DNA of 64,000 nucleotides from Rhodococcus xishaensis (lineage in GTDB: Bacteria > Actinomycetota > Actinomycetes > Mycobacteriales > Mycobacteriaceae): NCBI RefSeq assembly GCF_004011825.1, contig NZ_RKLO01000001.1, positions 1 through 64,000 on the forward strand. Direction: 5' to 3'. Positions within the stretch are counted from its first letter, which is position 1, and each line of letters starts with the position of its first letter. The notes under the pieces were generated by a model. That model searched no databases and was not told where the DNA came from. It saw nothing but the letters and a program-made list of their open reading frames with translations. The position numbers were made by a program, and so were the translations under genes. Below, in pieces: positions 51,467 through 58,706 of this stretch.

Positions 51467-52708
51467 GTGACCTCTACCGCGCAGGAGCCTGACACCGAAC
51501 CGGAGACCGCGCGCGCCGCCTCCGCCCCGGAAGCCCCGTCCTCAGTGGTCGCGTCCCCGTCATCAGCGGTAGCGCCTCAGGCGGAAGCGGTGATCGATCT
51601 CGACGCCGTGGCGCACAACATTCGCATCTTGAACGAGCACGCCGGCGATGCCTCCGTTATGGCGGTGGTCAAGGCCGACGCGTACAGCCACGGTGCCGTT
51701 CCGGTGGCTCGGGCGGCCCTTGCCGCCGGTGCACGTGAACTTGGCGTAGCGACCCTCGAAGAAGGCCTCGAACTCAAGCACGCGGGCATCACCGCACCCG
51801 TCCTCTCGTGGCTGCACACGTCCGACGCCGACTACGCACCCGCCATCACGGCGGGGGTGGAACTGGGGCTGTCGTCGCCGCGCCACCTCGCTGCGGTTGT
51901 TGACGCGGCACGCCGAGTGGGTGAGACCGCCACCGTATCGGTAAAGATCGAAACCGGCCTCAACCGCAACGGTGTGTCACACGAAGAATGGGACGACTTC
52001 CTGGTGGATCTCGCTCGCGCGGAAGCCGAGCGCGCGATCCGTGTCAAGGGCATGTTCTCGCATCTTGCGCACGCCGACGAACCCCACCACCCGGTGATCG
52101 ACGATCAATGCGAGCGGTTCACGCGAGCACTCGATGACGCCAAGCACGCTGGTCTTGTGCCGGAGGCCGCGCACATGGCGAACTCGGCGGCCACGCTCAC
52201 CCGCACCGACCTGCGGTTTGAGATGGTTCGGCCGGGAATTGCGATATACGGGCTGTCGCCGGTGCCGCGGATGGGCACCTTCGACCTGAGACCGGTCATG
52301 ACGTTCCGATCGAGGGTGGCTCTGGTGAAGAAGGTTGCAGCAGGGGAGGGCGTGTCCTACGGCCACACCTGGATTGCGCCGCACGACACGATCGTGGCGT
52401 TGCTGCCGGTCGGCTATGCGGACGGTATCCCGCGCGCGCTCAGTGGGAGGTTCGATGTGTGGCTCGGGGACGACCGACGTCCGGGCATCGGCCGGGTCTC
52501 GATGGACCAGGTCGTTGTCGACCTCGGTCCGGACGGGGCGGGCGTCAGGGAAGGTGACATCGCGGTGTTCTTCGGGAACGGAGAGCGCGGTGTGCCACAC
52601 GCGCAGGAGTGGGCCGAGGCGCTCGACACCATCCACTACGAGGTGGTGACATCAGTGCGCGGACGGACGGTCCGAACCTTCGTCGGAGGGCCGGACGGTC
52701 CGTCATGA
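51467..52708 (+). CDS. alr: Alanine racemase
   Basis: 413 residues. The PLP lysine is K69 in AVVKADAYSHG; the catalytic tyrosine is Y298 in GVSYGHTW; also ETGLNRNGV and VSMDQVVVDLG. It makes D-alanine for peptidoglycan. An Ala/Pro-rich 40-residue N-terminal lead is present. I use GTG 51467 (GGATCG nearby, weak). The stop overlaps the next gene (ATGA). Confidence 0.95.
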   Translation: MTSTAQEPDTEPETARAASAPEAPSSVVASPSSAVAPQAEAVIDLDAVAHNIRILNEHAGDASVMAVVKADAYSHGAVPVARAALAAGARELGVATLEEGLELKHAGITAPVLSWLHTSDADYAPAITAGVELGLSSPRHLAAVVDAARRVGETATVSVKIETGLNRNGVSHEEWDDFLVDLARAEAERAIRVKGMFSHLAHADEPHHPVIDDQCERFTRALDDAKHAGLVPEAAHMANSAATLTRTDLRFEMVRPGIAIYGLSPVPRMGTFDLRPVMTFRSRVALVKKVAAGEGVSYGHTWIAPHDTIVALLPVGYADGIPRALSGRFDVWLGDDRRPGIGRVSMDQVVVDLGPDGAGVREGDIAVFFGNGERGVPHAQEWAEALDTIHYEVVTSVRGRTVRTFVGGPDGPS

Positions 52709-53799
52709 ACCTCGTGAACAGGCTCGGCTTGTTCGGCGGCGTTGTGGGCGTCGCCGCGATAAGCACACTCGCGGGGTTCGAGGTTGTGAAGTCCGTGACG
52801 AAGCGCCAGGGACCGGAGATCTACGGATCCGAGGACTTCGAACTCATGAGCGGCGACCGGAGCCGGGTCGTCATGACGGAGGACGATGTTCCGCTGCTGG
52901 TCCGCGAGGTCGGTCCCTCGGACGCTCCGCTGACCGTGATCTTCGTGCACGGGTACTGCCTGCGCATGGAGTCGTGGCACTTCCAGCGCAAGCAACTCGA
53001 ACGGATGTGGGGCGACTCGGTACGGATGGTGTTCTACGACCAGCGTGGGCATGGCGGGTCGGGGATGCCGACCGCCGAGAGTTGCACCATTGCACAGTTG
53101 GGGCGCGATCTCGAGGCGGTGATCGACGCCGTCGCGCCGACCGGTCCGGTGGTGCTAGTGGGGCACTCGATCGGCGGTATGACGATTCTGGCGATGGCGC
53201 GTCAGTTCCCAGAATTGTTCGACGACAAGGTGATCGGCGTCGGTCTGCTCGCGACGACGGCAGCCGGCCTGAACAAATCCGGGCTCGGTCGCAATCTCGA
53301 CAACCCCGTGATCGACGCGTTCCGGCTTGCCGTGCGTACCGCGCCGGAAGTTGTGCAGCGGGCGCGCGGCGCCGCGCGCGCGATCATCTCGCCGATCCTG
53401 CGCGCCGCATCGTATGGCACCGAGGTGTGCCCGCGGCTCGTCGCGTTCTCCGAGGGCATGCTCAACACAGTGTCCGTGGTGACTATCGTCAACTTCCTCG
53501 AATCGCTGGAACTGCACGACGAGTCCGAGGCACTGCCCGTGCTCGCCGACACCCCGGCACTGGTGTTGTCCGGTGACGCCGACATGGTCATCCCGTTCCC
53601 GAGTTCGAGGTCGCTCGCGGCGCGGCTGCCGCGGGCCGAGTTGGTGCGAGTCCGCGGTGCCGGCCATATGGTCGAGCTCGAGTTCCCGCAGGCAACCTCC
53701 GATGAGATCGATCGGCTGGTCCAGCGGGCTGTGTCGCGCCGCAAGGATCGAGAAAATGCCACGCCGGCAGGTGAATTGGAGCGGACCGATGCCGTCTGA
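52705..53799 (+). CDS. Alpha/beta hydrolase, membrane-anchored
   Basis: 364 residues. One N-terminal hydrophobic segment (LFGGVVGVAAISTLAGFEVV), then an alpha/beta hydrolase domain with the oxyanion HGYCLRMESWHFQ, nucleophile GHSIGG, acid in SGDADMVIPF and histidine in GAGHMVELEFP. Substrate unknown. The position between alr and tsaE is the same as in mycobacteria. ATGA overlap with alr; its end overlaps tsaE by 11 bases. Confidence 0.9.
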   Translation: MNLVNRLGLFGGVVGVAAISTLAGFEVVKSVTKRQGPEIYGSEDFELMSGDRSRVVMTEDDVPLLVREVGPSDAPLTVIFVHGYCLRMESWHFQRKQLERMWGDSVRMVFYDQRGHGGSGMPTAESCTIAQLGRDLEAVIDAVAPTGPVVLVGHSIGGMTILAMARQFPELFDDKVIGVGLLATTAAGLNKSGLGRNLDNPVIDAFRLAVRTAPEVVQRARGAARAIISPILRAASYGTEVCPRLVAFSEGMLNTVSVVTIVNFLESLELHDESEALPVLADTPALVLSGDADMVIPFPSSRSLAARLPRAELVRVRGAGHMVELEFPQATSDEIDRLVQRAVSRRKDRENATPAGELERTDAV

Positions 53800-54298
53800 C
53801 CCTGGTACCGCGCGAGGCAGTGCCACGCTACCGACCACCGAGGACACCGAGGCGCTGGGACGAACACTGGCCCGCGACCTCGTCGCGGGGGATCTCGTCG
53901 TGCTCGACGGGCCGCTCGGGGCTGGGAAGACCGCGTTGACCCGGGGGATCGCGGCGGGGCTCGGTGTGGAGGGGCGCGTGACGTCACCGACCTTCATCAT
54001 CGCCCGTGAGCACCGTCCGGGCGCCCGACCCGACGGCGGCGCCCCGGTCGCCCTTGTCCATGTAGATGCCTATCGGCTGGGCGAGGCCGGTGGAGGCGGT
54101 GCCGTGGACATGCACGACCAGCTCGACGCCCTCGATATCGACACCGACCTCGCCGGTGCGGTGGTCGTTGTCGAGTGGGGAGAGGGCATCGTCGAGCACC
54201 TTGCGGAGCGGCATCTACGCGTACGACTCCGCCGTGAGCCGGGGTCGGACGTTCGGACCGCGACGTGGGAGTGGGTGACCGGACCCGGGGCTCGCTGA
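53789..54298 (+). CDS. tsaE: tRNA threonylcarbamoyladenosine biosynthesis ATPase TsaE
   Basis: 169 residues: Walker A GPLGAGKT (about residues 42-49), SPTF (switch), HVDAYRLG, and the Walker B/aromatic VVVVEWGEG. With TsaB and TsaD it makes the t6A modification at position 37 of ANN-decoding tRNAs; here TsaE is separated from tsaB by a duplicated segment. ATG 53789 with GGAGCG upstream. A decayed second copy lies at 55371-55681. Confidence 0.93.
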   Translation: MPSDPGTARGSATLPTTEDTEALGRTLARDLVAGDLVVLDGPLGAGKTALTRGIAAGLGVEGRVTSPTFIIAREHRPGARPDGGAPVALVHVDAYRLGEAGGGGAVDMHDQLDALDIDTDLAGAVVVVEWGEGIVEHLAERHLRVRLRREPGSDVRTATWEWVTGPGAR

Positions 54299-54328
54299 CT
54301 CCTGCAGTAGGCGTCCGAGAACGTGACT

Positions 54329-55000
54329 TCAGGCTCGGGTCGGTGGACCCGGGGGCTCCGCCGCGGCGGCTGCCTCGCCGAACCGGCGGTCGTATGCGAC
54401 TGCGATCCACGCGGTGATCACTGCGGGTATCACGAAGGTCGCCTGGCCCAACCCGTTCGAGTAGCCAAATGCGCCGGATCGGATGGATTCGATCAGTAGA
54501 TACATGGCCAAGGTGAGGACCGCAGCCAGTGGAAGGACCCGCAGGCACGCCCGACGCGTCCGCCGCGCGACGAGCCACCCCGCGGTCGCTGCCGTGACGC
54601 CCGCGACAGCAGCGATCAGGATCGCCAAGGACTCGTAATTGCCGTCTTCGCCGACGAAGACGTAGCGTATGCCCCCGACCAGTGGATTGATTACCAGCAC
54701 CGACAGAGCGAGTACAGCACCGATTCCCGCCCTCACACGACTGCGGGCAGCCACGGACACTGCGAACGCCAGCGCGACCGGTATGAGCAGGAATTGGGCG
54801 TAGAGACCGGGCCACTCGAGGTCGACGCTCGAGCGGGTGGAAAACAGGAACGCGATCAGAACAGAGGTCCACAAGACCACATGCCCGACGAACAGTCGGG
54901 CCAGTTCGGTCCGCTCGTCCGACCAGAAGTCGACTGCAGCAGTGTCCCGATCGGAGCGCTGGGCTCCAGGACGCGAGGTCGATTCATCCAGTTCGGTCAT
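54329..55000 (-). CDS. Membrane protein, duplicated copy A
   Basis: 223 residues, hydrophilic N-terminus, then about six TM segments (for instance HVVLWTSVLIAFLF, AGIGAVLALSVLVI, VLPLAAVLTLAMYLLIE, TFVIPAVITAWIAVA). Family unrecognised. It closely resembles copy B at 55710-56411 through its whole length. ATG 55000 is used; the frame runs on upstream over the decayed tsaB copy. It is antisense to the tsa genes. Confidence 0.7.
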   Translation of the reverse strand: MTELDESTSRPGAQRSDRDTAAVDFWSDERTELARLFVGHVVLWTSVLIAFLFSTRSSVDLEWPGLYAQFLLIPVALAFAVSVAARSRVRAGIGAVLALSVLVINPLVGGIRYVFVGEDGNYESLAILIAAVAGVTAATAGWLVARRTRRACLRVLPLAAVLTLAMYLLIESIRSGAFGYSNGLGQATFVIPAVITAWIAVAYDRRFGEAAAAAEPPGPPTRA

Positions 55001-55169
55001 GGCGACGATTGTGAGCCACCGCGATGGATGCCGCAAGGGGGTACGAACGCTATTACTCGGTGGTCGAGTACTCAGCGGTCGAGCGTGAGGCTTCGGCTTC
55101 GGTAGCGACGGAATGGCGACGGTCAGCCGGTCCCGGAAGCCGCGTGCGGCGAGGGTAACCAGGTACATC

Positions 55170-55370
55170 GTGCTTGTGCTTGCCATCGACACCTCCACTC
55201 CCGCGGTTACCGCAGGCGTCGTGCAATTCGACTCTGAGTCCGACGCCGGTGCTGCGCGGGCGTTCGCGACGCGACAGACCGTCGACGCCCGAGCACACGC
55301 GGAGGTCCTCACCCTGCAGATCCACGAGTGAATCGCCGAATCCGGCTACAACCCTTCGGATCTCGACGCC
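55170..55370 (+). pseudogene. tsaB: Truncated tsaB copy
   Basis: Nearly the same sequence as the first 201 bases of intact tsaB (56537-56737), from GTG 55170. A stop codon replaces Cys in LECLAESG (TGA at 55329-55331), and the copy breaks off in SDLDA, where a tsaE copy begins. No functional product is expected. Confidence 0.9.
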
Positions 55371-55681
55371 ACCGACCACCGAGGCGCTGGGACGAACAAC
55401 TGGCCCGCGACCTCGTCGCGGGGGATCTCGTCGTGCTCGACGGGCCGATCGGGGCTGGGAAGACCGCGCTGACCCGGGGGATCGCGGCGGGGCTCGGTGT
55501 GGAGGGGCGCGTGATGTCACCGACCTTCATCATCGCCCGTGAGCACCCTCCGGGCGCCCGACCCGACGGCGGCGCCCCTGGTCGCCCTGGTCCATGTCGA
55601 TGCCTACCGGTTGGGTGAGGCTGGAGGAGGGACGTTCGCACCGCGACGTGGGAGTGGGTGACCGGCCCAGGGGCGCGCTGA
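55371..55681 (+). pseudogene. tsaE: Decayed tsaE copy
   Basis: Matches tsaE from THREGAL-equivalent codons (near 53831) to its stop. A 9-base gap near the start, an extra base at GGAP, and loss of roughly 157 bases in the middle (including the Walker B region) disrupt it. The P-loop GPIGAGKT is still readable. The unit is fused directly to the truncated tsaB. Confidence 0.9.
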
Positions 55682-55709
55682 CCCCTGCGGAGCGCCCTAG
55701 AACGGGACT

Positions 55710-56411
55710 TCAAGCCTGAGCCGGTGGATCTGGGGGCGCCTTGGCGGCCGCCTGGCCGAACCGACGGTCGAGCGCGACTGCGATCCATGCGGTGATCACT
55801 GCGGGTATCACGAAGGTCGTCTGGCCCAACCAGTTCGAGAAGATCGGGTTGAAGGTATGGAAGATGGCGTAGCCGAATGCGCCGGAGTCGATGAATACGA
55901 TGAGTAGATACATGGCCAAGGTGAGGACCGCAGCCAGTGGCAGCACGCGCAGGCACGCCCGTCGCGTCCGCCGCGCGACCAGCCACCCTGCGGTCGCGGC
56001 CGTGACGCCAGCGACAGCAGGTGCGATCAGGATCGCCCAGAACTCGTAGTAGCCGACCTCGCCGGCGAAGACGTGGAGTATGCCCGCGACCAGTGGTCTG
56101 ACTACCAGCACCGACAGTGCGAGTGCAGCACCGATTCCCGCCCTCACACGACTGCGGGCAGCCACGGACACGGCGAGCGCCAGTCCGACCGATATGACCA
56201 GGATTTGGGTGTAGACACCGAGCCACCCGAGGTCGACCGTCGAGCGGGTGGGCAACAGGAACGTGATCAGAACAGAGGTCCACAAGACCAGATGCCCGAC
56301 GAGTAGTCGGGCGAGTGCGGTCTGCTCATTCGACCAGAAGTCGACTGGAGCAGCGTCCCGATCGGAGCGTTGAGCCCTGAAACGCGAGGGCGATTCGTCC
56401 GATTCAGTCAC
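55710..56411 (-). CDS. Membrane protein, duplicated copy B
   Basis: 233 residues, GTG start at 56411, six or so TM segments in the same places as copy A; identical stretches include AVSVAARSRVRAGIGA and AGWLVARRTRRACLRVLPL. It has about ten more residues near the C-terminus (AIFHTFNPIFSN insert). Both copies are intact while their tsa neighbours decayed, which suggests that the membrane protein is under selection. Function unknown. Confidence 0.7.
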   Translation of the reverse strand: MTESDESPSRFRAQRSDRDAAPVDFWSNEQTALARLLVGHLVLWTSVLITFLLPTRSTVDLGWLGVYTQILVISVGLALAVSVAARSRVRAGIGAALALSVLVVRPLVAGILHVFAGEVGYYEFWAILIAPAVAGVTAATAGWLVARRTRRACLRVLPLAAVLTLAMYLLIVFIDSGAFGYAIFHTFNPIFSNWLGQTTFVIPAVITAWIAVALDRRFGQAAAKAPPDPPAQA

Positions 56412-56536
56412 ATCGACGATTGTCGCCCATCTCGATGGATACCGCAGAGGGCGGTACGAACGCTTTCGGTAGCGACGGAAAGGTAAAGGTCAGCCGGTCC
56501 CGGAAGCCGCGTGCGGCGAGGGTAACCTGGTACATC

Positions 56537-57193
56537 GTGCTTGTGCTTGCCATCGACACCTCCACTCCGGCGGTTACCGCGGGCGTCGTGCAATTCGACC
56601 CTGAGTCCGACGCCGGTGCTGCGCGGGCGTTGGCGACGCGACTGACCGTCGACGCCCGAGCACACGCGGAGGTCCTCACCCCGCAGATCCTCGAGTGCCT
56701 CGCCGAATCCGGCTGCAACCCTTCGGATCTCGACGCCGTCGTCGTCGGGGTAGGGCCGGGTCCGTTCACGGGACTGCGCGTCGGCATGGTGACCGCGGCG
56801 GCTTTCGGAGATGCGCTCGGCGTTCCCGTGCACGGGGTGTGCAGCCTCGACGCGATTGCCGCTGATGTCGGTGATGATCGGGACCTGTTGGTGGTGACGG
56901 ATGCTCGTCGCCGCGAGGTGTACTGGGCGCGCTACTCGGGTGGGCGACGGGTCGAGGGCCCCGAGGTGATCAAACCGTCCGAGCTCGCCGCGGCGCCGTC
57001 CGAGGCGATCGCCGGATCGGCCTCGCACGTGGACATGTTCGACCTCCCGGTAGCGCCGGTGGAGACACCGTCACCGACCGGTCTGGTGGCGGTCGCAGCG
57101 CAGGCATTGCGTGTCGGGGTAGAGCCGGAGCCGTTGGTTCCGCTGTATCTGCGTCGGCCGGACGCGGTGGAATTGGCGGCCCGTCGCAGATGA
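56537..57193 (+). CDS. tsaB: tRNA threonylcarbamoyladenosine biosynthesis protein TsaB
   Basis: 218 residues, ASKHA fold: [36 protein letters not shown], and [34 protein letters not shown]. It forms the TsaB-TsaD core for t6A. The GTG at 56537 fits the family start; an in-frame extension to 56420 is not conserved. Its stop overlaps rimI (ATGA). Confidence 0.94.
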
Positions 57194-57660
57194 ACTTCCG
57201 CATCGTGCCGATGACCGACGCCGACGCCGACCGTTGCGCGGAGTTGGAGCAGGTGCTCTTCCCCGGAGACGATCCGTGGAGCGCGAAGGCGTTCCGGTCG
57301 GAGCTGGCGCGCCGTCACAACCACTACTTCGCGGCACGCGACGAGGCCGACGTGCTGATCGGGTACGCCGGGGTGGCACTGCTCGGCACGAGTGTGATTC
57401 CCGAGGGCGAGGTCCACACGATCGGCGTCGATCCGAAGGTACAGCGAGGTGGCGTCGGCAGTGCGCTGCTGTCGGAGCTGCTGCGGGTCGCCGACAAGTG
57501 GGGCGGCCCGGTGTTCCTCGAGGTCCGCACCGACAACGAACCGGCGATCGCGCTGTACAAGCGCGAGGGCTTCGAAATCGTAGGAACCAGGAATCGGTAC
57601 TACCAGCCGAGCGGCGCGGACGCGTTCACGATGCGCCGTCCCCCGCAGGGCAAGGAGTGA
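57190..57660 (+). CDS. rimI: Ribosomal protein S18-alanine N-acetyltransferase
   Basis: 156 residues, GNAT fold with the acetyl-CoA loop [11 protein letters not shown] (residues about 83-93) and [23 protein letters not shown]. The gene order tsaB-rimI-tsaD is conserved in actinobacteria. It acetylates the N-terminus of S18 and perhaps other proteins. ATGA overlap with tsaB. Confidence 0.93.
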
Positions 57661-57665
57661 CGGCC

Positions 57666-58706
57666 ATGATCGTGATGGGTATCGAGAGTTCGTGCGACGA
57701 GACCGGTGTCGGGATCGTCCGCTGGCTCGGTGACGGCCGGTGCGAGTTGCTCGCCGACGAGGTGGCCTCGAGCGTCGACCAGCACGCGCGCTACGGCGGC
57801 GTTGTGCCGGAGATCGCGTCGCGCGCGCACCTCGAGGCCATGGTGCCGACGATGACGAGGGCGCTGACGGCCGCCGGAATCGACAAGCCCGATGCCATCG
57901 CAGTCACCATCGGTCCCGGCCTTGCCGGTGCCCTCCTCGTCGGGGTTGCCGCCGCCAAGGCGTACGCGGCCGCGTGGGGCGTGCCGTTCTACGCGATCAA
58001 CCACCTCGGCGGCCACGTCGCCGTGGACACGATCGAGCACGGCCCGATGCCGCCGTGCGTTGCTCTGCTCGTCTCGGGTGGACACACGCACCTGTTGCAC
58101 GTCGAGGGGTTGGGTCGCAAGCCGATCGTGGAGTTGGGCACCACGGTGGACGATGCTGCCGGCGAAGCTTTCGACAAGGTGGCCCGGCTACTCGATCTCG
58201 GGTTCCCGGGTGGGCCCGCGCTCGATCGCCTCGCGCAGCGGGGTGAGCGCGACGCAATCGTGTTCCCGCGTGGCATGACCGGCCCGCGGGATGCGCGCCA
58301 CGACTTCTCGTTCTCGGGTCTCAAGACCGCGGTGGCCCGCTTCGTCGAGGCGAAGCAGGCTGCGGGAGAGCCGATCCCGGTCGCCGACATCGCGGCGGGA
58401 TTTCAGGAGTCGGTCGCCGACGTGCTGACGATGAAGGCCGTACGTGCGGCTCAGGACGTCGGTGTCGGCACCCTCGTTCTGGGTGGCGGCGCGACCGCCA
58501 ACTCGCGAATCCGTTCGCTCGCGGAAGAGCGGTGCGGGGCCGCAGGCCTCACCCTCCGCGTGCCGAGCCCACGGCTGTGCACGGACAACGGGGTGATGAT
58601 CGCCGCGCTCGGGGCGCACCTCATTGCGGGTGGTGCCCAACCGTCGCGGCTCACCTCGGCAACGGATCCGGGACTTCCGGTTTCGGTGAGCCAGGTTCGA
58701 GACTGA
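57666..58706 (+). CDS. tsaD: tRNA N6-adenosine threonylcarbamoyltransferase TsaD
   Basis: 346 residues: [31 protein letters not shown], the metal pair H113/H117 in [15 protein letters not shown] and the [12 protein letters not shown] end. It transfers the threonylcarbamoyl group to A37. ATG 57666 lies 5 bases after rimI. Its last 56 bases overlap the convergent gene. Confidence 0.96.

Follow-up and report, generated by a model that had tools for sequence, protein, structure and literature searches.

The window analysed here, a stretch of 64,000 nucleotides from Rhodococcus xishaensis, comes from a genome of 3.71 Mb in 22 contigs (completeness 99.97, contamination 0.57). It carries a cluster with the order alr, alpha/beta hydrolase gene, tsaE, memA (antisense), tsaB', tsaE', memB (antisense), tsaB, rimI and tsaD, where tsaE and tsaB are tRNA-modification genes, memA and memB are two copies of a membrane protein gene and the primes mark incomplete copies; alr and tsaD were named from open reading frames and gene order, without a profile. 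The outer tsaE (53789..54298, plus strand; 169 aa; PF02367, E 5.9e-31; 95% identity to Rhodococcus spongiicola) and the outer tsaB (56540..57193, plus; 217 aa; PF00814, E 4.4e-29; 96% identity) are intact, the latter starting with GTG shortly 3' of a -10-like TAACCT. A rimI-type acetyltransferase gene follows (57190..57660, plus; PF00583, E 4.1e-18), and then tsaD (57666..58706, plus), which shares 97% identity with the R. spongiicola locus and was identified from order and sequence. Against R. spongiicola, dN/dS lies at 0.05-0.12 for tsaE, tsaB, rimI and tsaD.

R. spongiicola LHW50502 is the closest relative among the compared genomes and the sister of the window genome in a five-gene tree (support 100). 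Marine sponges are the source from which both species, members of the R. equi sublineage, were described (PMC11893733). The order alr, tsaE, tsaB, rimI, tsaD is shared with the alr-groEL1 operon of Mycobacterium tuberculosis, which is reported to have multiple internal promoters and successive genes that overlap by 4 bp all the way from alr to tsaD (PMC5335608). Unlike that operon, the window holds a hydrolase gene between alr and tsaE and two antisense genes in the gap between tsaE and tsaB.

The repeated unit and its junction

A tandem duplication had been proposed for this cluster in the initial annotation, and it is borne out by collinear repeats together with the single-copy locus of R. 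spongiicola. The repeat search returned seven collinear direct-repeat blocks (D1-D7) with spacings of 1367-1534 and identities of 85-98%, with matches beyond chance such as 300 bases at 87% and 273 bases at 95% identity. The whole duplicated unit becomes visible when both copies are aligned with the R. spongiicola locus: unit A (53830..55370, 1541 bp) runs from codon 14/15 of tsaE through memA to codon 66 of tsaB', and unit B (55371..56737, 1367 bp) follows directly. The annotation had also suggested looking for the single-copy state in sister strains, and R. spongiicola has it, with 906 bases between tsaE and tsaB as compared to 2244 in the window. Units A and B each carry many private changes. 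The duplication is real and old, and it is ordinary in kind.

The novel junction (55370..55371) connects base 198 of tsaB', the end of codon 66, to the equivalent of tsaE base 53830 in codon 14/15; the expected fusion of tsaB to an early tsaE codon is therefore present, with codon 66 in place of the predicted codon 67. Long homology is absent here, and the only homology consists of ACGC, common to both sides just upstream. Tandem duplications by illegitimate recombination are known from bacteria (for example PMC11111574), and these likewise have head-to-tail copies, a single new junction with little if any homology and one joined pair of partial genes. The event in the window differs from them in being old, with a 13% difference between the membrane gene copies, and in that the partial genes brought together at its junction are dead, not activated. 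Among the titles listed by searches of the open-licence literature, none concerns this duplication. An origin by a mobile element was rejected, since inverted repeats of at least 30 bases are absent at the unit ends and MemB has no match among plasmids; the one inverted pair in 52500-58500 (minimum length 30) lies away from these ends.

Because the breakpoints fall inside tsaB and tsaE, the outer tsaE and tsaB stay whole, the inner tsaB' and tsaE' are truncated and the gene in the middle is doubled. The annotation had ascribed the survival of one good copy of each tsa gene to unequal decay: the outcome is as described, whereas its cause is the position of the breakpoints, and decay came after. 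As the inner copies were broken at birth, selective sorting is not needed. The locus is thus a clear natural example of how breakpoints inside needed neighbours yield two copies of the middle gene only.

The inner copies have since deteriorated. tsaB' (55173..55370, plus) is a 5' fragment spanning 66 of the 217 tsaB codons and contains the nonsense codon noted at the outset, a TGA at codon 53 (55329-55331). Six of its eight classified private changes are nonsynonymous, which indicates that it became a pseudogene some time ago. A -10-like element of the form TA[AG]CCT precedes all 14 functional tsaB genes (the window and 13 genomes) and is altered only before tsaB' (55155-55172), where an A replaces the final T (TAACCT to TAACCA); its place and conservation suggest that it acts as the tsaB promoter. 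tsaE' (55371..55681, plus) lacks a start codon and retains an incomplete domain, with PF02367 matched at 55391-55549 over profile positions 11-63 of 128. It has lost 9 bases near 55384 (read by eye from the alignment) and 151 bases between 55629 and 55630 (54096-54246 of unit A), where the repeat spacing drops from 1534 to 1383, and has gained single bases near 55398 and 55579, so that three of its four indels are not multiples of 3. A frameshift and a loss of about 157 bases had been claimed; the loss stands, at 151 bases, and is accompanied by the 9-base loss and the two insertions. In the 46 aligned bases before this deletion (54050-54095), seven sites differ between the units, as compared to four in the preceding 180-base block, and four of the seven are changes in the live tsaE.

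The two membrane genes

Both membrane genes lie on the minus strand, memA at 54329..55000 (223 aa, ATG start) and memB, the more constrained copy, at 55710..56411 (233 aa, GTG start). A Kyte-Doolittle count gives six hydrophobic segments for each protein, nine overlapping MemB windows having been merged into six. The proteins are 79% identical. MemA lacks ten codons and one further codon that MemB and R. spongiicola have, and its ATG stands where the other two use GTG; the membrane frames contain three indels, each a multiple of 3 in length, and the relative in a further Rhodococcus genome (G010) lacks seven residues at the place of the ten-residue loss.

The initial annotation was right that both frames, at 54332-55000 and 55713-56411, are open, yet they have evolved at unequal rates. 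The pairwise comparison that it had recommended gives a dN/dS of 0.57 (dS 0.217, dN 0.124), with MemA the faster copy: nonsynonymous and synonymous changes number 33:14 on the MemA branch, 13:17 on the MemB branch and 32:21 on that of R. spongiicola. By Fisher tests MemA differs from MemB (p = 0.031), and neither is clearly different from the sister gene (p = 0.40 for MemA, p = 0.17 for MemB). At the protein level, MemA has thus changed more than MemB.

There is a substantial chance, if somewhat short of even, that MemA is a decaying spare that has yet to meet its first stop codon, a reading that is compatible with the explanation we prefer below and differs from it only in the fate of MemA. 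Its branch ratio of 33:14 is close to the neutral ratio (0.93), and the probability of seeing no stop after 48 random substitutions is 0.24, which means that the open frame is not strong evidence of function; moreover, a relative in another genome (G011) matches the family profile at residues 2-59 only and then runs into a stop. Decay of this kind fits less well with the in-frame indels, the six hydrophobic segments that have been kept, the retained upstream CACAAT element and the ATG start in place of the GTG of MemB and R. spongiicola.

The upstream ACAATCGTCG element occurs before both copies and in R. spongiicola and G010, while it is missing from another genome with a relative, G005; that it acts as a promoter is our guess. 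A promoter scan detected no site of the sigma-70 consensus; terminator-like sites numbered three, as compared to a mean of 1.0 in shuffled sequence.

Of 401 family genomes, six give a match to a five-member profile of the membrane gene, namely the window genome (twice), R. spongiicola, G010, G005, G011 and a genome of another genus. The last gives a weak partial match with a stop, and the match in G011 (L012 3442-3600, minus) is a remnant covering profile positions 2-59 with a stop soon after. In G010 the gene adjoins ABC-transporter genes and in G005 it adjoins guaA (neighbours recognised from open reading frames, without a profile), in both cases outside the tsaE-tsaB gap. The presence of relatives at unrelated loci in two sister species (L010 3509-4159, minus; L011 3334-3975, plus) indicates that the membrane gene has probably moved. 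The protein appears to represent an undescribed family of narrow distribution: neither copy scores over the cut-off in Pfam or NCBIfam, the best hit being UPF0060 for MemA (E 0.02, 15.6 of 24.9 bits), and a search of solved structures at E up to 1 returned no match. A role as a defence gene was discarded, as a PADLOC search at E up to 1 gave no match. We speculate, with low confidence, that it is dispensable and related to small molecules or the envelope, and that doubling raised its dose and then let one copy drift.

Mismatched divergence along the unit

The dead tsa fragments serve as a neutral clock within the locus itself, and by that clock the membrane genes look either older or recombined. 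Neutral changes per branch amount to 22/633 (3.5%) in the tsa flanks, made up of 16/492 in the dead copies (all sites) and 6/141 in the live ones (synonymous sites), as compared to 31/376 (8.2%) at synonymous sites of the membrane genes (p = 0.002; small numbers, with changes of three states left out). The membrane copies are consequently about 2.4 times more divergent at neutral sites than the tsa repeats that flank them. On the R. spongiicola branch the two classes are equal (17/141 and 21/190, p = 0.86), so faster mutation of the membrane gene is not a likely cause. Neutral divergence is therefore uneven along the unit, which a single event without later exchange does not predict, whereas later exchange between the repeats would lead to different divergence of flanks and membrane genes. 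Either of two processes would account for the mismatch: gene conversion of each tsa gene with its inner copy (tsaE with tsaE', tsaB with tsaB'), or the import of a membrane allele once the duplication had taken place. A search for conversion tracts found no significant clustering, either by the longest run (P 0.47 for the whole unit, 0.28 for the membrane gene) or by a runs test (P 0.14 and 0.29).

We consider it probable that a single tandem duplication by illegitimate recombination, followed by decay of the inner copies and by later exchange between the repeats, gave rise to this locus. The duplication would have occurred in the window lineage after its split from that of R. spongiicola, with breakpoints at tsaE codon 14/15 and tsaB codon 66 and no long homology between them. 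It would have left the outer tsaE and tsaB whole, truncated tsaB' and tsaE' at once and turned the antisense membrane gene into two complete genes that each have an upstream region of their own; both may be expressed. The nonsense codon, the frameshifts, the deletions and the loss of the T in the tsaB' -10 element would then have accumulated in the inner copies. MemB would have stayed under constraint while MemA took on a near-neutral protein rate with its frame kept, and having two copies may bring some benefit. The repeats would have continued to exchange sequence after the duplication, either by conversion that affected the tsa flanks or by the import of sequence into one of the membrane genes.

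It is rather unlikely, by comparison, that units A and B are different alleles of two strains, placed in tandem by unequal recombination between resident and incoming DNA. The membrane dS between A and B (0.217) is indeed close to the 0.246-0.261 that separates them from R. spongiicola, and the A-B distance relative to the mean distance to R. spongiicola is 0.67 in the 5' part of tsaE, 0.89 at its 3' end (52 sites), 0.82 in the membrane gene, 0.90 in the gap between mem and tsaB and 0.55 in tsaB, and reaches 1.67 in the 27-site gap between tsaE and mem. The low neutral divergence of the tsa flanks (3.5% per branch) nevertheless means that the differences between the joined alleles would have to be concentrated in the membrane gene, and the predominance of nonsynonymous changes in tsaB' also speaks against such an origin. 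Furthermore, the nearer outgroup, G010, places A with B against R. spongiicola: 19 nucleotide sites group A with B, 12 A with R. spongiicola and 3 B with R. spongiicola, the corresponding amino-acid counts being 5, 0 and 1; quartets with G005 are weak (13, 7 and 9 nucleotides; 2, 2 and 2 amino acids). An assembly artefact or contamination that chained two haplotypes or strains is very improbable: the genome is indeed in 22 contigs, but the junction falls within two genes whose flanks are unique, on a 960-kb contig, completeness is high and contamination low, and private changes in both copies together with inner lesions alien to a functional haplotype make an assembly echo unlikely.

The tsaE-tsaB gap as a variable slot

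The value of the locus lies in these mismatched clocks and in a slot of variable content within a conserved gene cluster. Among 14 genomes of the genus, the tsaE-tsaB gap is empty in six (32-41 bases between the TsaE and TsaB matches), holds an antisense MpaB-like oxygenase gene in six (1041-1072 bases) and the membrane gene in two. The oxygenase-slot genomes (L043, L045, L046, L048, L050 and L053) encode a protein of the MPAB_Lcp type (PF09995; the match was run on the G005 protein, to which the other five are 82-94% identical). Within the 14 genomes, copies more than 80% identical are confined to the slot, and the other eight genomes carry only distant paralogues (22-27% identity). On the five-gene tree the genomes with the oxygenase are scattered and several nodes have weak support (44-81), so that a single early gain followed by repeated losses is likely, not proven.

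Like the membrane gene, the MpaB/Lcp-type gene is antisense and divergent from tsaB, with partly similar flanking sequence; it differs in belonging to another Pfam family, in the lack of visible similarity to the membrane gene and in being single copy in its slot. A comparison of the 45 bases that precede the core tsaB promoter, with 500 shuffles, was positive for unit B of the window against all six MpaB genomes and above all 500 shuffles for three of them, positive for R. spongiicola against all six though within the shuffles, and negative in 12 of 12 comparisons for the empty genomes. These similarities are no more than suggestive of a common origin of the two slots. One could go further and regard the gap as a slot for guest genes, tolerated because tsaB has a start-proximal promoter, in which an antisense guest divergent from tsaB is gained, lost, exchanged, with the MpaB-like oxygenase and the orphan 6-TM protein replacing each other, and here doubled, while the tsa fragments serve as recombining homology arms and the guest diversifies, MemA gaining a new role; we regard this broader scenario as doubtful.

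Outside the genus, gaps in 140 sampled genomes (151 genomes searched; one without a tsaE match left out) measure up to 300 bases in 122, 301-800 in five, 801-1500 in none and more than 1500 in 13. Three small genomes of another genus (L067, L068 and L069; gaps of 529-648 bases) have a same-strand open reading frame between tsaE and tsaB, which has an N-terminal hydrophobic stretch.
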